Origin: Lysobacter sp. K5869
Lineage (GTDB): Bacteria; Pseudomonadota; Gammaproteobacteria; Xanthomonadales; Xanthomonadaceae
DNA length: 64,000 bases
Reading direction: 5' to 3'
NCBI RefSeq assembly: GCF_018847975.1
Contig: NZ_CP072597.1
Coordinates: 3,511,001-3,575,000, forward strand
The first letter of the stretch is position 1. Every line of letters begins with the position of its first letter. The position numbers and the translations under genes were made by a program. Under the pieces are notes generated by a model. That model did not search any database. It was given only the letters and a program-made list of their open reading frames with translations, and was not told where the DNA came from. Positions 8,626 through 62,821 of this stretch are shown in pieces.

Positions 8626-9594
8626 ATGTGGGCGTGGATCGGCATGCACGCCGCGCTGGCCGCGGCCGGCACTTGGCTCGCGCGCGCGTACGCGTTGCGC
8701 AGCCGCCTGATCGATCAACCGGGCGAACGCCGCAGCCATAGCGTGGCGACGCCGCGCGGCGGCGGCATCGCCATCGTGATCGCGTTGCTGGTGGCGACCT
8801 TGTCGCTGGCGCTGAAGTTTCCCGCCTACGCCGGGCTGGCGTCGGCGTTCGGGATCGGTTTGCTGCTGGTCGCGGCGATCGGCTGGGTCGACGACCACCG
8901 CCCGCTGTCGCCGTGGCTGCGGCTGGCCGTGCACGTGCTGGCCGCGGCGGTGCTGGCGGCGGGGATCTGGCTGCTGCGCGGCGAGGCCTGGGTGGCCCTG
9001 GCCGCGTTCGTGTTCGCGGTCGGGCTGACCAACGTGTGGAACTTCATGGACGGGATCAACGGACTGGCTGCCTCGCAGGCCGCGCTGGTCGCGCTGGCCC
9101 TGGCCGGATTCGGCGGTCCGGTCTGGAGTTGGCTGGCCCTGGCCCTGCTCGCGGCCTGCGTGGGTTTCCTGCCGTTCAACTTTCCGCGCGCGCGGATCTT
9201 CATGGGCGACGTCGGCAGCGGCGCGATCGGTTACGCCGTCGCCGGCCTCGGCGCCCTGGCCGCGACCGGCCTGGACGCATGGCACGCCGCGCTGATGCTG
9301 ATCCCGCTGGCCGCATTCATGGTCGACTCCAGCCTCACTTTGCTGCGCCGCGTGCGCCGCGGCGAACGCTGGTGGACCCCGCACACCCAGCACGCCTATC
9401 AGGTCTGGGCGCGCCGCGCGGGGCATGTCCGCGTCACCCTCGCTTATGCGATTTTCACGTTGCTGTCTTTAGTCTCGCTGCACCTTGTGACCGAAGTCCG
9501 GATCGGTTTCATGCTGTGTATGGGAGGCGGATGGTATATATCCGCCGCTTTTTTTTGGTGGCTGATCCAGCGGACCGAACGGTCCGCAACGTAG
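8626..9594 (+). CDS. WecA/WbpL-like undecaprenyl-phosphate sugar-1-phosphate transferase
   Basis: This 322-residue polytopic protein of the MraY/WecA family has about ten hydrophobic segments. The catalytic Asp motifs of the family are visible: GWVDDHRPLSP (about residue 86), NVWNFMDGINGLAASQ (about residue 138) and IFMGDVGSGAIGY (about residue 191). Such enzymes load a (di-N-acetylated or deoxy) HexNAc-1-phosphate onto undecaprenyl phosphate and start O-antigen or related glycan assembly at the cytoplasmic face of the inner membrane. The WbpM-like dehydratase downstream supports a WbpL-type role; the exact sugar is unknown. Confidence 0.9.
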   Translation: MWAWIGMHAALAAAGTWLARAYALRSRLIDQPGERRSHSVATPRGGGIAIVIALLVATLSLALKFPAYAGLASAFGIGLLLVAAIGWVDDHRPLSPWLRLAVHVLAAAVLAAGIWLLRGEAWVALAAFVFAVGLTNVWNFMDGINGLAASQAALVALALAGFGGPVWSWLALALLAACVGFLPFNFPRARIFMGDVGSGAIGYAVAGLGALAATGLDAWHAALMLIPLAAFMVDSSLTLLRRVRRGERWWTPHTQHAYQVWARRAGHVRVTLAYAIFTLLSLVSLHLVTEVRIGFMLCMGGGWYISAAFFWWLIQRTERSAT

Positions 9595-55220: not shown

Positions 55221-55958
55221 TTACTCCGCCGGCGCGTACATGCCGTTGTGCACCGTCTCGACGATGTCCTCATACCCGCCGGTCGACCACGGCTTGCCCT
55301 TGCCGTCGGCGTACAGCGTCATCGTCGCCTCGATCGCGTGGCTGCCGGCCTGGCCGAGCGAACGGTCGAACTCGGCGACGCCCTCGAGCAGCTTCTTGGT
55401 CTTGAGCTTGGCCGGATCGCCCTTGCCCGCCAGCACTTCCTGCAAGCGCTTGCCGATCAGCGGCACCGTGCATTCCATCGCGACGTCGGCGATGCGCGCG
55501 TTCTTGACGTGCTCGTTGGCGTATTCGCGGTTCGACACGCCGCGGCATTCGGCGCCGGAGGCGAGCACGTTGACCCGCTTGATCGCCGCGGCCAAGGCCG
55601 GCTTGGCCTTCTTCTTGTCGACCTTGGGCATGTCTTCGAGGATCGCGTCGGCGAAGCCGTCGTACTGCGCGTCCATGCCGGCTTCGTCGTGCAGGGCGAT
55701 CGCGTTCTCGCCGTTGGAGTACAGCGGGCGCAGATAGTCGTTGATCCGCGCGGTCGCGTCGGCGTCGTGCTTGAGCGCGATGCGCGCGTAAAGCTCGGCG
55801 ACCTGCTCGGGCTTGAGCGTGTTCTTGGGCGCGGCGGCCTTGGCGGCCTTGGATTTGGACGGCTTGGCGGCTTCGGCCGGGGCGAAGCAGGCCGGCGCGA
55901 GCACGGCCGGAATCAACAAGGCGGCGAGAAGGGCTTTGGACAGAGGGGAGGCGGTCAT
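55221..55958 (-). CDS. Exported protein of unknown function
   Basis: This 245-residue protein has a signal peptide (about residues 1-30, LLAALLIPAVLAPACFAPAEAA) and a Lys/Ala-rich linker (KPSKSKAAKAAAPKN). The remaining helical domain contains LKPEQVAELYARIALKHDADATARINDYLRPLY and two Cys (SGAECRGV and AMECTV) that may form a disulfide. The end, STGGYEDIVETVHNGMYAPAE, is compact. I recognise no family. It lies 93 bases downstream of the STM4011-type radical SAM gene on the same strand, so a link to that operon is possible but unproven. Confidence 0.8.
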   Translation of the reverse strand: MTASPLSKALLAALLIPAVLAPACFAPAEAAKPSKSKAAKAAAPKNTLKPEQVAELYARIALKHDADATARINDYLRPLYSNGENAIALHDEAGMDAQYDGFADAILEDMPKVDKKKAKPALAAAIKRVNVLASGAECRGVSNREYANEHVKNARIADVAMECTVPLIGKRLQEVLAGKGDPAKLKTKKLLEGVAEFDRSLGQAGSHAIEATMTLYADGKGKPWSTGGYEDIVETVHNGMYAPAE

Positions 55959-56051: not shown

Positions 56052-56903
56052 CTAGACGAACGAGGGCACGCGTTCCAGTACGCCGCCGGCGTAATCGCGC
56101 TGGAACGGCAGGTCCGGGCGGTGGGCGTAGCCGATGTAGCAGTCGCAGCGCGCGTTCGGGCAGGCGCGGGCGCGCAGGTGGGCGGCGAAGCTGCCGTCGT
56201 AGAGGTTGCCCAAGGGCTCGGCGACGAAATGACAGCGGCGCACCGCGCCGTCGCCGTCCACCGACACCACGGTGTCGCCGGTCAGGCAGGGCGCGCCGAG
56301 GCTCGGCGAGGGCGCGAGGTTGTAGCGGAAGTGCGGGTCGATCGCCTCGATCCGGGCGATCTGCGCGGCGTCGTAGTAATCCGGCGGGCGCGGGTCGAAG
56401 GCGTTGACCCACATCGGCGTCGCGGCCGGCAGTTCGCGCCGCATCGCCTCGATTTCGTCGAGGTCTTCGATCAGCCCGACCATGCCGACGCTGTGGCGCA
56501 CGCCGCGCCGGCTCAGCTCGCGGCAGCGGGCGAGGAAGGCGGCGCGGGTCACCTGGGTCGGGTGGTAGGTACACCACAGCGCGAGCTTGCTCAGATCCGC
56601 GTCTTCCAGCCAGCGCAGGCCGACGCAGAGATTGGTCTGGATCGCGACCCGGCGCAGCCGCGGCAAGCGGCTCAGCGCGATCATCGCCTCGCGGTAGTGG
56701 CGGCGCACCAGGCCCTCGCCCCAGGGCGTGAACAGCACCGACAGTTCCATCTCTTGCCGCCCGGCCCACTCGACGAAGCGGGCGAGGTCGGCGGCGTCGC
56801 GGCGCAGCGCTTCGCGGCTGTCGTAGGTCTTGGCGAACGGGCAGTAGCCGCAATCGTAATTGCAACTGCTCAGGCGGCCGCGATAGAGCACGGACAGATG
56901 CAT
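56052..56903 (-). CDS. STM4011-family radical SAM protein
   Basis: This 283-residue radical SAM enzyme has the cluster motif C-x3-C-x2-C near the N-terminus (Cys14, Cys18, Cys21 in CNYDCGYCPFAK). A short partial TIM barrel follows. Five further Cys lie in the C-terminal third (about 206, 224, 248, 253 and 255, including CPNARCDCY), possibly ligands of an auxiliary Fe-S cluster as in SPASM-like enzymes. It is the last gene of a five-gene operon and begins 3 bases after the STM4012-type gene. The reaction and substrate are unknown. Confidence 0.9.
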   Translation of the reverse strand: MHLSVLYRGRLSSCNYDCGYCPFAKTYDSREALRRDAADLARFVEWAGRQEMELSVLFTPWGEGLVRRHYREAMIALSRLPRLRRVAIQTNLCVGLRWLEDADLSKLALWCTYHPTQVTRAAFLARCRELSRRGVRHSVGMVGLIEDLDEIEAMRRELPAATPMWVNAFDPRPPDYYDAAQIARIEAIDPHFRYNLAPSPSLGAPCLTGDTVVSVDGDGAVRRCHFVAEPLGNLYDGSFAAHLRARACPNARCDCYIGYAHRPDLPFQRDYAGGVLERVPSFV

Positions 56904-56906
56904 GGC

Positions 56907-58283
56907 TCAGCCCAGGCGGTAGTCGCGCATGCGCTGGACGATGGCGGACGAGGCCAGCCACGGGCCGATGGTGTCGGCGCGGGCGAGGCCGGCGTCGGTG
57001 AGCTCGATCAGCTCGCCGTTTTCGACCGCGAGGCCGTGGGCGAACAATTCGCGCAGTTGCGGCAGGTGGTCGAGGCAGTCGGCGCCGAAGCGGCGGCGGT
57101 AATCGGCGCGGTCCAGGCCGGGGCGGATCAACAGCGACTGGATCGCGTGGCGGCGCCGGCGTTCTTCCTCGCCCACGGCGATGCCGTAGTCGGCGACCGC
57201 GAAGGAGGCTTCGTCGCGTTCGAGGTAGTGATCGAGGATCTCGGCGACGCTGCGCCGGGCCACGCCGTACTCGCTGGAGTAATGCAGGCTCGACGCATAC
57301 GAACGCGCGCCGCAGCCGATGCCGATCATGCCGTCGCTTTGGCAGCAATACACCGGCGCGGCAACGTCGGGCGCATGCGGCGCGCGGAACATGCGCATCG
57401 ACACTTGCTGGTAGCCGGCGGCGAGCAAACGGTCGCGGCCGGCTTCGTACAAGGCGAGGCGCTCGTCCATCGGCTCGGCTTGCAGCGGCAAACGCGCGCC
57501 GGCCTTGGCTTCGATCCGGCCCAGGCCGGTCAGCGGCCGCACGTACAGCGGATAGAGATACAACTCTTCGGGACGGTGTTCGAGCGCGCTGTCGACGGAG
57601 GCGAGGAAGCTGGCGACCGTTTGCCCGGCGATGCCGTAGATCAGATCGAGATTGAGCGTGGCGATGCCGGCGGCGCGGATCGCGGCGATGGCCTGTTCGA
57701 CCGTGGCGCGCTGCTGCGGCCGTACCAGCGCGCGCACTTCGGCTTCGCTGAAGCTCTGGATGCCCATGCTGACGCGGTCGATGCCGCGCTCGCGGCACAG
57801 CTGCATTTTCTCGGCGTCGACGGTTTCCGGCGACACCTCGATGCCGGCCGGGATCGCATGCAGATCGACGTTCGCGTGGCGTTCGACGAGATCGAACAAG
57901 CGCCGCAACTGCGCCGCGTCGAGATAGCTCGGCGTGCCGCCGCCGACCGCGAAGCGGACGAAGCGGTGTTCGCCCAGCGCCTGCGCGGTGGCGCGCAGTT
58001 GCCGCTCCATCTGTTCGAGATAGCGCTCGACCTTGGCCGGCTCCGGCCGCGCCAGCGCGAACAGATTGCAGAAGCCGCAGCGGTAGCTGCAGAACGGCAC
58101 GTGCAGGTACAGGAACAGCGAATCGCGCGCTTCGCCGGCCCACAGCTCGCGCAGATCGCGCGGCGGCTGCAGGGGGCGATAGGCGGTCTTGTGCGGGTAG
58201 GAGTACGAATAGGCCTGATACGGCGGCAGGCGCAGCAGCTCGCTCAGGCTCGGGGCGGTGGGTTCGTGGACGACGGCGTTCAT
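56907..58283 (-). CDS. STM4012-family (HemN/coproporphyrinogen-oxidase-like) radical SAM protein
   Basis: This 458-residue protein is related to HemN/HemW. The radical SAM Cys65, Cys69 and Cys72 lie in VPFCSYRCGFCNLF. The barrel has VGGGTPSYLDAAQLRRLF, IEVSPETVD, RVSMGIQSFSEAEVRALVR and LNLDLIYGIAGQT. A helical C-terminal HemN-like domain follows. It is distinct from true HemN by context and family, so I do not call it a haem enzyme. Its start overlaps the stop of the STM4013-type gene by 4 bases. Confidence 0.9.
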   Translation of the reverse strand: MNAVVHEPTAPSLSELLRLPPYQAYSYSYPHKTAYRPLQPPRDLRELWAGEARDSLFLYLHVPFCSYRCGFCNLFALARPEPAKVERYLEQMERQLRATAQALGEHRFVRFAVGGGTPSYLDAAQLRRLFDLVERHANVDLHAIPAGIEVSPETVDAEKMQLCRERGIDRVSMGIQSFSEAEVRALVRPQQRATVEQAIAAIRAAGIATLNLDLIYGIAGQTVASFLASVDSALEHRPEELYLYPLYVRPLTGLGRIEAKAGARLPLQAEPMDERLALYEAGRDRLLAAGYQQVSMRMFRAPHAPDVAAPVYCCQSDGMIGIGCGARSYASSLHYSSEYGVARRSVAEILDHYLERDEASFAVADYGIAVGEEERRRRHAIQSLLIRPGLDRADYRRRFGADCLDHLPQLRELFAHGLAVENGELIELTDAGLARADTIGPWLASSAIVQRMRDYRLG

Positions 58284-59113
58284 GGATCGAGGAGGAAATG
58301 CGCGTAGGGCACGGTCATCACCGTGTCGTGGGCGAGGCGGTGGCCGTGGAAGCCGTCCTCGCCGTAGGCGGTGCCGTGGTCGGAGCAGACGATGGCGAAG
58401 GCGCCGCCGCGGGCGCGCAGCGCGGCCAGCAGCGGCGCCAGCGCGGCATCGACGTAACGCAGCGCGGCGCGGTGAGTGGCGTAGCTGTCGGTTTCGCTGC
58501 CGGGCAAGTAGTGGCGGTTGGGTTGGTGCAGGGCGGAGACGTTGACGAAGACGAAGCAGCGCTTGTCGCGCAGTTCGTCGCTGCACAGGCGTTCGCAGGC
58601 CAGCGCGACCTGGCGCTCGGTCGAATCCGGCGCGGTCACGCCCAAGCCGGGATGCCAGTGGCTTTCGTCGAACAGGTTCGGAAACTGCGAGCCCAGCGGA
58701 TTGCGCTTGTTGAAGAAGCCGACGCCGCCGATGCAGATCGCGTGATAGCCGGCGTCGCGCAGGCCCGAGACGATGTCGGCGCGGTCGCGGAACACATGGG
58801 TGCCGGCGGCGGTGGTTTCGCTGCCCTCGAACTCCAGCGCGAACAGGCGCGGGTGCGGGCCGGGGCGCGCGGGCGTGGGCAGGAAGCCGGCGAAGAACGC
58901 GGCGTGCGCGGCGTAGGTGAAGCTGCCCGGGGTGTGGCGGCGCTCCCAGCCGCCGGCGTGCAGGTGCTGCGACAGCACCGGCAGTTCGCCGGCGTCGAAG
59001 CAGGCTTGCGCCGCGTCGAAGCGCAGGGTGTCGAGCGTGATCAGCAGCAAGTCGCGCTGGCCGACCACGCCGCGCATATCGGGATTGTCGTAGCGTGCGC
59101 CGGCCTCAGGCAT
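58280..59113 (-). CDS. STM4013/SEN3800-family hydrolase (alkaline-phosphatase/sulfatase fold)
   Basis: This 277-residue protein shows the sulfatase/alkaline phosphatase fold: LLLITLDTLRFDAAQ with metal-binding Asp28, GSFTYAAHAAFFAGFLPT with the probable nucleophile Ser/Thr (residues 64-66), and CSDHGTAYGEDGFHGHRLAHD with the C-terminal metal ligands. There is no C/S-x-P-x-R sulfatase motif, so formylglycine-dependent sulfatase activity is unlikely. It probably cleaves or transfers a phosphoester or phosphonate-like group in the operon's pathway. Its start overlaps the STM4014-type gene by 8 bases. Confidence 0.88.
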   Translation of the reverse strand: MPEAGARYDNPDMRGVVGQRDLLLITLDTLRFDAAQACFDAGELPVLSQHLHAGGWERRHTPGSFTYAAHAAFFAGFLPTPARPGPHPRLFALEFEGSETTAAGTHVFRDRADIVSGLRDAGYHAICIGGVGFFNKRNPLGSQFPNLFDESHWHPGLGVTAPDSTERQVALACERLCSDELRDKRCFVFVNVSALHQPNRHYLPGSETDSYATHRAALRYVDAALAPLLAALRARGGAFAIVCSDHGTAYGEDGFHGHRLAHDTVMTVPYAHFLLDP

Positions 59114-60257
59114 GGGCGGGCTCCGGCGCGTGCGGCGCTTGCGGCGAGTACGGCGCGGGCACCGGGCGCAGCAGCGCCTGATCCTGGTACGTGCTCAGGC
59201 CTTGCCACGGCAGATCGATCAGCAGATCGCCGAAGGCGTTGGCTTCCAGCACCCAACTGCGGCCTTCGCGCAGGATCAGGTCGAAGCCGATCATGCGGCT
59301 GCGCGGGAACGCCATCGCCGCTTGCTGGGTGGCGATTTCCAGCGCGTGCATGGCCGCGTCGTCGAGCCACTGCGCCAATGCGCCGCGGCGGTTGCCCAGG
59401 TGCAGGTTGGTCAGCGGGCCGGAGCCGACGCGGGCGACGCGGTGGCGCAGGAAACCGTCGAGCGCGACCGCGCGGATGTCGTAATGGCCGCCGTCGCCGT
59501 CCGGCGCGCGCGGCTTGGGAATCCAGCGCTCGACGTAGGCGCCTTGCGCGGCGATCGCGTCGATCAGCCGGGTGATGCGCGCGCCGTCGTCGTAACGGCG
59601 CGGCTTGAGCGAATTGAACACGCGGGTTTCGCCGCCGTCTTCGCTCAGCTCGGCCGAACCGTAAGCCGCTTCGCCGCCCGATCGGTTGCGCCGATACGCC
59701 AACACGCCCGCGCCGGACGAGCCGTAGCGGGCCTTGACGAAGACTTGGTCCGCGGCGTGTTCGCGCAGCAGCGCCTGCAGCGATTCGTAGCCGTCGATCT
59801 CGCCGAGCAGCGGCGGAATCGCGATGCCTTGCGCGCGCAGGCGGCGCTGGCAGGCGAGTTTGTCGCTCATGCCGGCGATGTCATCGGGCGGATTGAGGTA
59901 GCCGGCGCGCGCGGGCAGGGCGTCGAGCAGTGCGCGAAAACCGGCGTACCAGTAGTGCTGATGCGCCAATTCGCCATGCCGCAGCGGCCGCGGCGCCGCG
60001 CCGTCGCCGCCGAGCGCGCGCCAGCCGCGTTCGATCAGCGCCGCGTGCAGCGCCGGCGCTTCGCCCGGCGATTCGATCTTGACCAGCGCGCCGGGCCGCG
60101 CGTCGATGCGCTCGGCCGCGCGCTGCGGCGCGGCGAGCAGGTCTTCGTAATGCAGTTCCTCGGCCGCGGGCAGGCCGCGCTCGCGCAGGGCCTGTTGCAG
60201 CCCCCGCAGGCGGCGGCTGTCGCGCGGACCGATCAGCAGCCAGCCCGGCGGCGCCAC
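59106..60257 (-). CDS. STM4014-family protein, ATP-grasp-like
   Basis: This 383-residue protein has an ATP-grasp-type core: DKLACQRRLRAQGIAIPPLLGEI (about residues 135-160), QVFVKARYGSSGAGVLAYRR near residue 170 with the ATP-binding Lys, and a C-terminal FDLILREGRSWVLEANAFGDLLIDLPWQG metal and nucleotide region. Such enzymes ligate a carboxylate to an amine using ATP, so this gene may make an amide or peptide bond. It follows the LRR gene by 4 bases and overlaps the hydrolase gene by 8. The substrate is unknown. Confidence 0.87.
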   Translation of the reverse strand: MAPPGWLLIGPRDSRRLRGLQQALRERGLPAAEELHYEDLLAAPQRAAERIDARPGALVKIESPGEAPALHAALIERGWRALGGDGAAPRPLRHGELAHQHYWYAGFRALLDALPARAGYLNPPDDIAGMSDKLACQRRLRAQGIAIPPLLGEIDGYESLQALLREHAADQVFVKARYGSSGAGVLAYRRNRSGGEAAYGSAELSEDGGETRVFNSLKPRRYDDGARITRLIDAIAAQGAYVERWIPKPRAPDGDGGHYDIRAVALDGFLRHRVARVGSGPLTNLHLGNRRGALAQWLDDAAMHALEIATQQAAMAFPRSRMIGFDLILREGRSWVLEANAFGDLLIDLPWQGLSTYQDQALLRPVPAPYSPQAPHAPEPAHA

Positions 60258-60261
60258 GTCC

Positions 60262-61173
60262 TTACTCGGACACCGCCACGTAGCGGTCGCCGTCGTCCTC
60301 TTCTTCGGGATCGTCCAGCACCACCTGGCACGGCAGCGCGCGCAGCTTGGCCTGCCATTGCTCGGAGATGTAGTGATGGCTCAGGTCGATGCGTTCCAGC
60401 GCGCCCAGGTGCGGGCTTTCGGCCAGCGCCTGCGCGCCGACGTCGCCGATGGTGCCCAGCGACAGATCCAGGCTCTGCAGCGAGCCCAGCCACGGTTGCT
60501 GCGCCAGCCACACGGCCAAATCGTCGCTGATTTGCGAATCGCGCAGGCCCAGGTAGCGCAGGCGCTCGGGGCCGAGCTTTTCGAGCAGGTTCTGGTAGTC
60601 GGCGACGCTGCCGTCGAAACCGTAGTTGTCGCTGCCCAGCCACAGTTCCAGGTGCTTGAGCGCGGGCAGGGTGGAGCCGGCGAGGGCCTCGACGATCTTG
60701 CTCGGCAGGCCGCCGCATTCGATCGTCAGTTCCTCCAGCGCGGCGTGCGAGAACGCCTGCAGTTCCAGATTGCTGGAGCCGCGGATGCGCAGCGACTGCA
60801 GTTGCGGGAACGCGGCCAGCAGCGGGTTGTAGGAGGTCTGGATGATCCAGGAGATCTCGCAGTCCTCGTAAGTCATGTCGCCGATGAACAGCGCGGTGAG
60901 CTTGGGCAGCTTGGCGCGGTATTCGATCAGCGCGTCGAGATACCCCTGCGGGCCTTCGTCGTGGGCCTCGCTCCACGCGCCGACGATCAGCGCTTCCAGC
61001 CCGGCCGGATCGACCTTGGACAGGAAATCGTCGAGCAGGGCGCGCTGGCTCTCTTCGCTGTCGTAGTCCTGGGTCAGCCGGTAGACCACGTCGCCGCCGG
61101 CGGGCGTGGCGCCCATGCGGAATTCGACGACGCGTTTGCCGCGGTAGATCTGCGAGTACTCGCCGATGGTCAC
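60262..61173 (-). CDS. STM4015-family leucine-rich-repeat protein
   Basis: This 303-residue protein starts at a GTG (61173) with AAGGAG six bases upstream. The first 115 residues form an alpha/beta domain (TIGEYSQIYRGKRVVEFRM). Leucine-rich repeats follow over about residues 115-285, for example FPQLQSLRIRGSSNLELQAF, ALEELTIECGGL, LPALKHLELWLGSDNYGF and ERLRYLGLRDSQISDDLAVW. The acidic tail (DDPEEEDDGDRYVAVSE) lacks a signal peptide, so the protein is cytoplasmic. It is the first gene of the operon and may act as scaffold or carrier. No other function is known. Confidence 0.88.
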   Translation of the reverse strand: MTIGEYSQIYRGKRVVEFRMGATPAGGDVVYRLTQDYDSEESQRALLDDFLSKVDPAGLEALIVGAWSEAHDEGPQGYLDALIEYRAKLPKLTALFIGDMTYEDCEISWIIQTSYNPLLAAFPQLQSLRIRGSSNLELQAFSHAALEELTIECGGLPSKIVEALAGSTLPALKHLELWLGSDNYGFDGSVADYQNLLEKLGPERLRYLGLRDSQISDDLAVWLAQQPWLGSLQSLDLSLGTIGDVGAQALAESPHLGALERIDLSHHYISEQWQAKLRALPCQVVLDDPEEEDDGDRYVAVSE

Positions 61174-61250
61174 GTGGGGCTCCTTGCCTGCATTGGGGTA
61201 AACGAGGCCGAAGCATACCCAAGAGCGCTGGACGATGTAACCGTGGCTGC

Positions 61251-61414
61251 CTGTAGGAGCGGCGTGAGCCGCGACCAACCGCAGCGACGTACGCAAGCGG
61301 TCGATCCGAAGCCCGGTGAAGCGGAAAAGGCCGAAGCCCGATTGTCCGGGCTTCGGTGGGTTGAGTGGTATGGGCGTTGCTGCGGTTGGCCGCGGCTTAC
61401 GCCGCTCCTACACG
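61251..61414. repeat. Long GTAG element with inverted ends upstream of the STM4015 operon
   Basis: CTGTAGGAGCGGCGTGAGCC then GCGACCAACCGCAGCG (61251-61286) faces its inverted partner (61384-61414). The interior includes ACGTACGCAAGCGG and GAAGCCCGGTGAAGCGG, related to the element at 48932-49117. The interior also contains the hairpin at 61331-61356. Its left end lies about 78 bases upstream of the operon start codon. Confidence 0.7.
61331..61356 (-). terminator. Terminator-like hairpin after the GntP gene
   Basis: CCGAAGCCCG-ATTGTC-CGGGCTTCGG is a perfect 10-bp stem; on the minus strand it is followed by CCTTTTCC. It lies about 70 bases past the GntP-family stop, inside the GTAG element. Confidence 0.6.
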
Positions 61415-61423
61415 GGGCACGCC

Positions 61424-62821
61424 TCAGACCAGCCCGGTGGCGTAGAACGTCGCGATCACCACGAACACCGCCGCGGTCTTGATCAGCGTGATCGCGAAAA
61501 CGTCCTTGTACGCCTGCCGGTGGGTCAAGCCGGTCACCGCCAGCAAGGTGATGACCGCGCCGTTGTGCGGCAAGGTGTCCATGCCGCCGGAGGCCATCGA
61601 GGCGACGCGGTGCAACACCTCCATCGGGATGTTGGCGGCGTGGGCGTTGGCGATGAAGGTCTCCGACATCGCCGCCAGGGCGATGCTCATGCCGCCGGAG
61701 GCCGAGCCGGTGATGCCGGCCAACGCGGTGACGGTCACCGCTTCGTTGACCAGCGGATTGGGAATCGCGCCGAGCGCGTTGGCGACCACCAAAAAGCCCG
61801 GCAGCGCTGCGATCACCGCGCCGAAACCGTACTCGCTGGCGGTGTTCATCGCCGCCAGCAGCGCGCCGCCGATGGCCGCCTTGCTGCCTTCGGCGAAGCT
61901 CGCCGTCACCGGCTTCCAGGCGAACGCCAGCACCGCGGCGATGCCGAGCAGCAGCGCGCCTTCCACCGCCCAGATCGCGGCGATCTTGGATACGTCCTGG
62001 ACCACTGGCGCGGCGTCGCCGATCACCGCCGGGTCGAAGCTGTGCTGCTTGCCGTAGGCCTGCGGCAGCCATTCGCTGAAGAGCTTGTTGGCGACGCCGA
62101 CGATGACCAGCGGCGCGACCGCGATCAAGGGATGGGCGAGCTGGCCGCCGGCGAACGGCGCGGGTTCGTTGACCAGATCGGTGCCGTAGCCTTCGCCGGC
62201 CTTGAGCGCGGCGCGGCGGCGCCAGTTCAGATAGAACAGGCCGACGATCAGGATGAACACGCCGCCGATGCAGCCGAGGATCGGCGCGGCCCAGGTGTTG
62301 GTGCCGAAGAACGCGGTCGGAATGATGTTCTGGATCTGCGGCGTGCCCGGCAGCGCGTCCATGGTGAAGGTGAACGCGCCCAGCGCGATGGTGCCGGGGA
62401 TCAGCCGCTTGGGGATGTCGCTTTGGCGGAACAGCTCGGCGGCGAAGGGATAGACCGCGAACACCACCACGAACAGCGACACGCCGCCGTAGGTCAGCAG
62501 CGCGCACACCGCGACGATGGCGAGCATGGCGCGTTCGCGTCCGACCAGACGGATGGTCGCGGCGACGATGGATTTGGAGAAGCCCGAGGTCTCGATCAGT
62601 TTGCCGAAGATCGCGCCGAGCAAAAACACCGGGAAATACAGCTTGAGGAAGCCGACCATCTTGTCCATGAACAGGCCGGTGAACATCGGCGCGACCAGCG
62701 ACGGGTCGGTCAGCAACACCGCGCCGAGCGCGGCGACCGGCGCGAACAGGATCACGCTGTGGCCGCGGTAAGCGACGTACATCAGGAAGCACAGCGCGGC
62801 CAGCACGATCAAAAACGCCAT
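61424..62821 (-). CDS. GntP-family permease (gluconate:H+ symporter family)
   Basis: This 465-residue polytopic protein has about 12-14 transmembrane segments and the family pattern of GntP/citrate/hydroxybutyrate permeases: FPVFLLGAIFGKLIETSGFSKSIVAATIRLVG, AVYPFAAELFRQSDIPKRLIPGTIALGAFTFTMDALPGTPQIQNIIPTAFFGT and GITGSASGGMSIALAAMSETFIANA. The substrate, a small sugar acid or hydroxy/keto acid, cannot be decided here. It is a single-gene unit, opposite in strand to the TonB-dependent receptor gene that starts 266 bases away. Confidence 0.93.
   Translation of the reverse strand: MAFLIVLAALCFLMYVAYRGHSVILFAPVAALGAVLLTDPSLVAPMFTGLFMDKMVGFLKLYFPVFLLGAIFGKLIETSGFSKSIVAATIRLVGRERAMLAIVAVCALLTYGGVSLFVVVFAVYPFAAELFRQSDIPKRLIPGTIALGAFTFTMDALPGTPQIQNIIPTAFFGTNTWAAPILGCIGGVFILIVGLFYLNWRRRAALKAGEGYGTDLVNEPAPFAGGQLAHPLIAVAPLVIVGVANKLFSEWLPQAYGKQHSFDPAVIGDAAPVVQDVSKIAAIWAVEGALLLGIAAVLAFAWKPVTASFAEGSKAAIGGALLAAMNTASEYGFGAVIAALPGFLVVANALGAIPNPLVNEAVTVTALAGITGSASGGMSIALAAMSETFIANAHAANIPMEVLHRVASMASGGMDTLPHNGAVITLLAVTGLTHRQAYKDVFAITLIKTAAVFVVIATFYATGLV

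Follow-up and report, generated by a model that had tools for sequence, protein, structure and literature searches.

A Conserved Glutamate-Ending Tail Suggests a Carrier Role for the Leucine-Rich-Repeat Protein of the STM4011-STM4015 Cassette

The amino-group carrier proteins LysW and Vzb22, together with the pearlins, are the nearest analogies to the system considered here (as covered in the available part of PMC9303977). ATP-grasp ligases of the LysX/ArgX type join amino compounds to the C-terminal end of a protein, in LysW to its Glu. Here we compare with these systems a five-gene cassette of Lysobacter sp. K5869, STM4011 to STM4015, which occupies positions 56052-61173 on the minus strand of a 64,000-nucleotide stretch (contig NZ_CP072597.1, positions 3,511,001 to 3,575,000; hereafter the window) of a genome made up of one contig of 5.97 Mb. 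We think it probable that these genes encode an assembly line built on a carrier protein: STM4015, a leucine-rich-repeat (LRR) protein, would be loaded at the Glu of its tail by the ligase STM4014, and the tethered group would then be altered by the other enzymes. This model draws on four kinds of sequence evidence: a conserved tail on STM4015, the kinship of STM4014, SPASM-like cysteines in STM4011, and the all-or-none co-occurrence of the five genes.

What was already known comprises the NCBIfam names of the STM401x families, which hold no function, and one structure, PDB 2RA8 from Bacteroides fragilis, an "uncharacterized protein" that is a solved STM4015 homologue (profile E value of 1.5e-90). 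The genes are transcribed in the order STM4015-STM4014-STM4013-STM4012-STM4011, and the successive junctions are a gap of 4 bases, an overlap of 8, an overlap of 4, and a gap of 3. All five adjacent proteins passed the curated NCBIfam cut-offs and belong to the STM4011-STM4015 cassette. An earlier note on this DNA, made from the letters, had assigned the same families and described genes coupled by 3- to 4-base gaps or 4- to 8-base overlaps; both statements were borne out. The genes and their principal features are as follows.

60262..61173, minus strand: STM4015 gene, LRR protein of 303 amino acids, proposed carrier or substrate (NF038076, 324.5 bits; cut-off, 275)
60265..60285, minus strand: tail R-Y-V-A-V-S-E of STM4015, Glu303 last (Glu last in 98/99 open reading frames [ORFs])
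60286..60330, minus strand: acidic linker, residues -22 to -8 of STM4015, marked by its net charge
59106..60257, minus strand: STM4014 gene, ATP-grasp ligase of the LysX/ArgX/RimK type (NF038074, 320.3 bits; cut-off, 175)
59226..59246, minus strand: STM4014 motif E-A-N-A-F-G-D, with columns invariant in 44 sequences
58280..59113, minus strand: STM4013 gene, alkaline-phosphatase-superfamily hydrolase or transferase (NCBIfam, 385.3 bits; cut-off, 250)
56907..58283, minus strand: STM4012 gene, HemN-like (class-C-methylase-like) radical S-adenosylmethionine (SAM) enzyme (NF006067, 583.5 bits; cut-off, 380)
58068..58091, minus strand: STM4012 radical SAM motif CX3CX2C (86/87), fourth CXC cysteine absent
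56052..56903, minus strand: STM4011 gene, radical SAM enzyme with a SPASM-like C-terminal domain (NF038073, 371.9 bits; cut-off, 200)
56841..56864, minus strand: STM4011 radical SAM motif CX3CX2C, C14, C18, and C21 (87/87)
56139..56288, minus strand: conserved auxiliary-cluster cysteines of STM4011, C206-x12-G219-x4-C224 ... C248, C253, C255

To describe the family, we assembled 90 loci: the best 80 of 533 confirmed loci from a scan of the STM4014 alignment against one genome per species, nine of 13 plasmid hits, and the window. Counts from these 80 loci, like those from the best 120 of 607 and the best 120 of 2679 proteins, favor top-scoring members and underrepresent diverged tails. STM4015 proteins have an LRR fold, some with an N-terminal extension, and their C termini follow the consensus R-[YF]-V-x-V-[SGAT]-Glu after an acidic linker. 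Glu was the final residue in 98 of the 99 STM4015 ORFs of the loci, and the sole departure was an N-terminal fragment of 120 residues in L075, where the C-terminal part, a fragment of its own, ends RYCVVSE. With the N-terminal fragment counted, position -2 was Gly, Ser, Ala, or Thr in 98 ORFs, -3 was Val in 83, -5 was Val or Ile in 89, -6 was Tyr in 91, and -7 was Arg in 95. The linker had a mean net charge of -6.5 over 15 residues and a charge of -3 or lower in 90 of the 97 Glu-ending proteins of at least 200 residues. When the STM4015 profile was run against 5.8 billion proteins, the best 120 of 2679 matches likewise all had Glu last, a supporting count that is not independent, as the tail was part of the profile and locus proteins are among the matches. 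No comparable C-terminal conservation was seen in the other four cassette proteins at the same loci. The reverse-translated tail pattern occurred once in the whole Lysobacter genome, at STM4015, and of 90 tail matches in a six-frame scan of the loci, all fell within STM4015 ORFs. This conserved tail was missed by the earlier note.

Several STM4015 genes stood apart in arrangement. A Myxococcota locus (L074:4008-7209) carries three in tandem, with tails RYVTHSE, RYVTHSE, and RYATHGE; these are the only three of the 99 ORFs with His at -3. In a metagenomic protein, P0121, two STM4015 units are fused in tandem, and the tail is on the C-terminal unit only. In whole-genome searches of six genomes from other groups, five held STM4015 as a single cassette copy, and the Myxococcota genome (G104) held three cassette copies plus five weak partial matches elsewhere. 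The STM4015 gene of the window starts with GTG, and AAGGAG lies at 61180-61185.

The second line of evidence concerns the ligase. A profile search of the PDB with STM4014 gave LysX and RimK as the best matches, and when its AlphaFold2 model (predicted local distance difference test score, 92.8) was ranked against known folds, LysX/ArgX structures came first and RimK directly after. The protein thus has a LysX/ArgX-type ATP-grasp fold, which came out narrowly ahead of RimK and other members of the ATP-grasp group, as well as RimK-type fold and sequence kinship. Within the E-A-N-A-F-G-D motif, E337, N339, F341, G342, and D343 were invariant in 44 sequences (numbering without the start residue); the metal site of ATP-grasp enzymes is usually formed by this Glu and Asn. 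The GSWGR motif, with which LysX reads EDWGE, was found in none of the 90 STM4014 proteins. By sequence and modeled fold, STM4014 is placed with LysX, ArgX, and RimK, that is, with ligases that act at protein C termini. Taken with the Glu-ending tail, this kinship supports the guess in the earlier note that the LRR protein could be a scaffold or substrate, and STM4015 looks like the carrier or substrate of the cassette. The same note had seen no peptide precursor beside the operon. Given the conserved tail and a ligase whose kin act on protein C-terminal ends, a precursor is probably present as the final residues of STM4015 itself.

We looked for such a precursor, and for additional partners, among flanking ORFs of at least 60 amino acids in 46 representative loci. 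One ORF was kept per overlap, so that the search was blind to peptides shorter than 60 residues or lying under longer ORFs. Within this scope, no small precursor family recurred beside the operon except the partner of a DUF6745 protein, and no further partner gene was found in most loci. The DUF6745 protein and its partner of about 100 residues adjoin the cassette in 15 of the 90 loci (among them L001:12112-13421, L002, L006, L007, L008, L009, L061, L063, L066, L071, L078, and L086), on the strand opposite STM4014 in 14 of the 15. Conserved C termini occur there too: the partner ended V-x-D in 15/15, and DUF6745 had Glu or Gln at -2 in 15/16. DUF6745 gave no match in the Lysobacter genome, and none in 14 control genomes, so that the search could have missed members.

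To ask whether the five genes travel together, we searched 100 related genomes, including that of Lysobacter sp. K5869, and the 14 control genomes. STM4014 passed its cut-off in 18 of the 100, and STM4015, STM4011, STM4013, and STM4012 passed theirs in the same 18; in the remaining 82 and in the controls these four had no match at the thresholds used (1e-20 for STM4015, STM4011, and STM4013; 1e-80 for STM4012). STM4014 also gave weak, sub-cut-off matches in 51 further genomes (69/100 in all at an E value of 1e-3) and in 5 of the 14 controls, which we read as other ATP-grasp enzymes. Because of this all-or-none co-occurrence, we regard the cassette as one functional unit, as the earlier note had proposed; the loose co-occurrence that its suggested genome-neighborhood comparison might have turned up was not seen, and 64 of the 90 loci had the exact order 4015-4014-4013-4012-4011 (seven families scanned). 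STM4015 was present in 89 loci, STM4014 in 90, and STM4013, STM4012, and STM4011 in 87 each, the first two of these three counts taking in short remnants in L005. Four loci were incomplete. Three of them (L057, L062, and L067) are near contig ends, past which the missing genes presumably lie, and the fourth (L060) lacks only STM4015, which that genome has on another contig. In L005, from a Bacteroides finegoldii plasmid, STM4013 and STM4012 have shrunk to ORFs of 82 and 68 codons (8728-9106), and STM4015, STM4014, and an STM4011-HAD fusion are apparently intact.

The distribution of the unit is broad and patchy. It was present in 15 of 20 genomes of the genus, and the closest named STM4014 relatives, among the best 120 of 607 matches, were from Lysobacter enzymogenes. 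Taxonomy labels, checked individually for L079 and L061, place the loci in Pseudomonadota, Bacteroidota, Actinomycetota, Deinococcota, Bacillota, Planctomycetota, Cyanobacteriota, Melainabacteria, Chloroflexota, Myxococcota, and Acidobacteriota. The cassette thus ranges over at least ten phyla, with Salmonella, Streptomyces, and cyanobacteria included.

Copies of STM4015 away from the cassette varied in whether they keep the tail. The unlinked copy in the L060 genome ends RFVAVGE. Among 61 Streptomyces genomes, a set that probes the bias against diverged sequences, STM4015 passed its cut-off in 24, and 23 of those 24 had an STM4014 match (22 over the cut-off and one truncated at a contig end). 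The remaining genome, G131, had no STM4014 match at an E value of 1e-20, and its STM4015 ends ...SVGPLTY, without the tail. Six extra, unlinked copies were found in ligase-positive Streptomyces: four kept the tail (RYIAVAE, RFISVSE, RYIAASE, and RYIAVAE), and two were diverged and tail-less, one of these below the family cut-off. The three tail-less copies found in Streptomyces and the copies that keep the tail make a pattern that fits the carrier model in a small sample. Two unlinked paralogues (L093:9282-10478 and L094:4892-5980) share the end ISVGPL[TS]Y in place of the Glu tail, and by eye no ATP-grasp gene was recognized next to them. Two other unlinked copies (L096:5725-7095 and L099:4033-5361) have, by eye, an alike downstream gene whose function is not assigned.

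These copies also bear on whether the tail might be a by-product at the DNA level, with a ribosome-binding signal for translational coupling to STM4014 lying over the last STM4015 codons. The two genes are indeed close, the STM4014 start (mechanically chosen) falling within 20 nucleotides of the STM4015 stop in 64 of the 89 STM4015 ORFs that precede STM4014. However, the terminal Glu codons were mixed (GAG, 50; GAA, 48), as were the stops (TAA, 46; TGA, 33; TAG, 20; fragment included). Glu was retained in 9/9 cases where the next cassette gene is other than STM4014 (L075 fragment excluded), in 8/8 where a mechanically chosen STM4014 start lies more than 30 nucleotides away (a count that takes in the contig-cut L057 and the C-terminal fragment of L075), as well as in five unlinked copies. 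We consider this origin of the tail ruled out.

The remaining enzymes are consistent with modification chemistry, as the earlier note had suggested from the sequence. STM4011 carries, beyond its radical SAM motif, extra C-terminal cysteines that the same note had pointed out and that proved nearly invariant: C206, G219, C224, C248, and C253 in 87/87 and C255 in 86/87, with CX(9-15)GX4C in 87/87 and the fixed spacing CX4CXC in 81/87. The SPASM-domain signature is CX(9-15)GX4C followed by further Cys, and STM4011 has both. SPASM auxiliary cysteines number seven in AlbA and eight in anSME, enzymes that modify proteins and peptides (available part of PMC5682303). Because STM4011 has five conserved auxiliary cysteines rather than this seven- or eight-Cys set, we call its domain SPASM-like. 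Its profile matched one PDB entry at an E value of 0.1 or better, SkfB (6efn; 3.5e-4), through the C-terminal domain. STM4012 has CX3CX2C in 86/87, the exception being the L005 remnant, and CX3CX2CXC in 0/87. It matched HemN (1olt; E value, 1e-30; residues 22-411) and NocN (9p2u; 9.4e-24) and fell far short of the NCBIfam hemN equivalog cut-off (148.2 versus 324.95 bits). The HemN-like class-C enzymes NosN and TbtI methylate (available part of PMC5682303). In PADLOC at 0.001, STM4015, STM4014, STM4013, and STM4011 had no anti-phage defense matches; STM4012 matched the candidate system PDC-M51A (E value, 8.7e-11; residues 95-248), probably through the shared radical SAM core, and we set this match aside.

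STM4013 has an alkaline-phosphatase-superfamily fold with the metal-site residues D, T, H, DH, and H. The residue that is presumably the nucleophile is an invariant Thr, and no signal peptide was seen by eye. None of the 88 STM4013 ORFs, of which one is a remnant, contained the formylglycine-type sulfatase motif, [CS]xP[SA]R, in agreement with the hydrolase lacking this motif that the earlier note described. Sulfatases and EptC/MCR-type transferases were tied among its fold matches, and with this tie we did not adopt phosphoethanolamine transferase as its function; the D-T-H-DH-H spacing may resemble that of MCR/EptA enzymes. One HAD phosphatase family accompanies the cassette in 7 of the 46 representative loci, 3' of STM4014 in five Bacteroidota loci (L059, L072, L080, L087, and L089) and L067, and adjoining STM4013 in L066. 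A different HAD protein follows STM4011 in Salmonella (L003, 11949-12683) and is fused to it in Bacteroides (L005, 9121-10686). These phosphatase partners make a phosphorylated building block plausible.

In the mechanism that we propose, STM4015 would be a soluble LRR scaffold with a flexible acidic extension that leads to the terminal recognition tail R-Y-V-x-V-[SGAT]-Glu-COOH. STM4014 would phosphorylate the gamma- or alpha-carboxylate of the terminal Glu and couple the activated residue, through an amide or isopeptide bond, to a small building block by way of its amino group. The tethered block, possibly with residues of the tail, would then be altered by the two radical SAM enzymes, STM4011 and STM4012, and STM4013, with the HAD phosphatase in some lineages, would probably act on an ester group of the block, either phosphate or sulfate, for instance by dephosphorylation. 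One comparison weighs against this proposal: the tails of same-locus paralogues were no more alike than those of cross-locus pairs with equal body identity. We had considered concerted paralogue tails as a sign of enzymes reading the tail and dropped the argument for want of any such excess.

A different use of the same tail is conceivable, if unlikely. In a route like that of ribosomally synthesized and posttranslationally modified peptides, or of a built-in cofactor, R-Y-V-x-V-S-E would itself be the core; the radical SAM enzymes would cross-link or rearrange its Arg, Tyr, Val, or Glu, the ATP-grasp enzyme would close a lactam or ester within it, and the LRR protein would be a giant leader or the protein with the cofactor built in. 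Arg at -7 (95/99) and Tyr at -6 (91/99) would suit such a core, the SPASM-like domain of STM4011 matches a peptide-modifying radical SAM enzyme, SkfB, and the graspetide ligases PsnB and MdnC appear among the Foldseek matches of STM4014. They do so at ranks 16 and 36, however, below LysX/ArgX and RimK. Graspetide cores pair Glu or Asp with Ser, Thr, or Lys partners, but the STM4015 tail has no conserved Lys, Ser, or Thr nucleophile, and -2 is Gly in 43/99 ORFs (fragment included). Position -6 varies as well, being Asn in Salmonella, Ser in Methylobacterium, and Met in a Schlesneria protein; terminal Glu is the only tail residue found in every full-length locus copy, and no protease was recognized in the cassette.

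Two further readings keep the ligase or the tail in a smaller role. STM4014 might lengthen STM4015 at its C terminus by one or more amino acids, in the manner of RimK, thereby regulating an LRR adaptor that recruits some other substrate for the radical SAM enzymes. RimK structures do rank straight after LysX/ArgX, and LRR folds typically bind proteins, but this reading, which we regard as distinctly improbable, leaves unexplained why the radical SAM enzymes and hydrolase are so strictly tied to STM4015, with no further partner in most loci. There is also a slim chance that the tail serves only to keep the enzymes in a complex, in the manner of C-terminal short linear motifs, with STM4014 acting on a free metabolite. 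An acidic linker with a short conserved C-terminal motif, on an LRR scaffold, fits a docking peptide equally well; docking gives no reason to expect, however, that the nearest kin of the ligase would be the two ATP-grasp groups whose acceptors are protein C termini.

Ninety-three bases past the operon, on the minus strand, is a gene outside the conserved cassette for a 245-residue protein with a signal-like N terminus (55221-55958), and upstream, on the same strand, one for a 465-residue membrane protein resembling GntP-type permeases by eye (61424-62821); neither had an NCBIfam or Pfam match at 0.01. In the upstream intergenic region (61230-61410), a short element (GTAGGAGCGGCGTAAGCCGCGGC and a near-complement) is present in inverted copies that look by eye like repetitive extragenic palindromic elements. 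Simple scans, weak guides in a GC-rich organism, gave no sigma-70-like promoter and no excess of terminator-like sites (2, versus 2.5 in shuffles).

The earlier note's statement that the function is not established agrees with the open-licence PubMed Central literature, in which we found no functional study of the cassette and neither the carrier reading nor the STM4015 tail. Salmonella STM4013 appears in a list of sigma54 binding (PMC3844500) and Salmonella STM4015 in one of positive selection (PMC2784778), and the available parts of both papers do not address function. The STM401x unit has been without an assigned function despite its range over at least ten phyla, with Salmonella among its hosts. 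The likely attachment point is the terminal Glu of STM4015, which narrows the question of the metabolite to one C-terminal peptide. If the carrier model is true, the ribosomally made carriers known to serve small-molecule synthesis, which are few, would come to include an LRR protein, and the tail motif together with a LysX-like ligase would offer a handle for genome mining.

How far the likeness to described systems extends can be judged part by part. Like LysW and Vzb22, STM4015 would be a separate carrier, with a globular domain and an acidic, charged C-terminal extension (flexible, we assume) that ends in Glu, and as in LysW systems an ATP-grasp loader of the LysX/ArgX type and further enzymes are encoded alongside. 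LysW, however, is a small Zn-binding protein, whereas STM4015 has the LRR fold and no such Zn domain; its tail reads RYVxV[SG]E, with EDWGE in 0/99, and its ligase differs from LysX/ArgX in lacking GSWGR. The downstream enzymes are two radical SAM proteins and an alkaline-phosphatase-fold hydrolase, and, unlike in LysW systems, no releasing peptidase was recognized in the cassette. STM4015 stands outside the LysW family and is only built, and perhaps used, like LysW. RimK, the glutamate ligase of ribosomal protein S6 and the second-ranked structural relative of STM4014, shares the ATP-grasp fold and an acceptor at the C-terminal end of a protein; RimK is not known from any radical SAM cassette, and S6 is not known as an LRR protein. 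STM4011 resembles the sactisynthase SkfB in its C-terminal auxiliary-cluster domain with the CX(9-15)GX4C signature and differs in having five auxiliary cysteines and a radical SAM core whose match to SkfB was not above threshold. STM4012 resembles HemN and the class-C radical SAM methyltransferase NocN by profile, but has only CX3CX2C and belongs far above the cut-off to an NCBIfam family of its own. Dedicated proteases are a feature of pearlin pathways, whereas none was recognized in the cassette. Pearlins (TglA and TmoA) share with the proposed model an amide-linked amino acid at the C terminus of a gene-encoded carrier and chemistry that includes a radical SAM enzyme, although PEARLs use aminoacyl-tRNA where the loader here would be an ATP-grasp enzyme (available part of PMC9303977). 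We give even odds to the broader proposal that the cassette represents a third kind of amide-tethered carrier, in which an LRR protein would serve as the covalent carrier and two radical SAM enzymes would build a metabolite or protein-bound cofactor at its C-terminal Glu.

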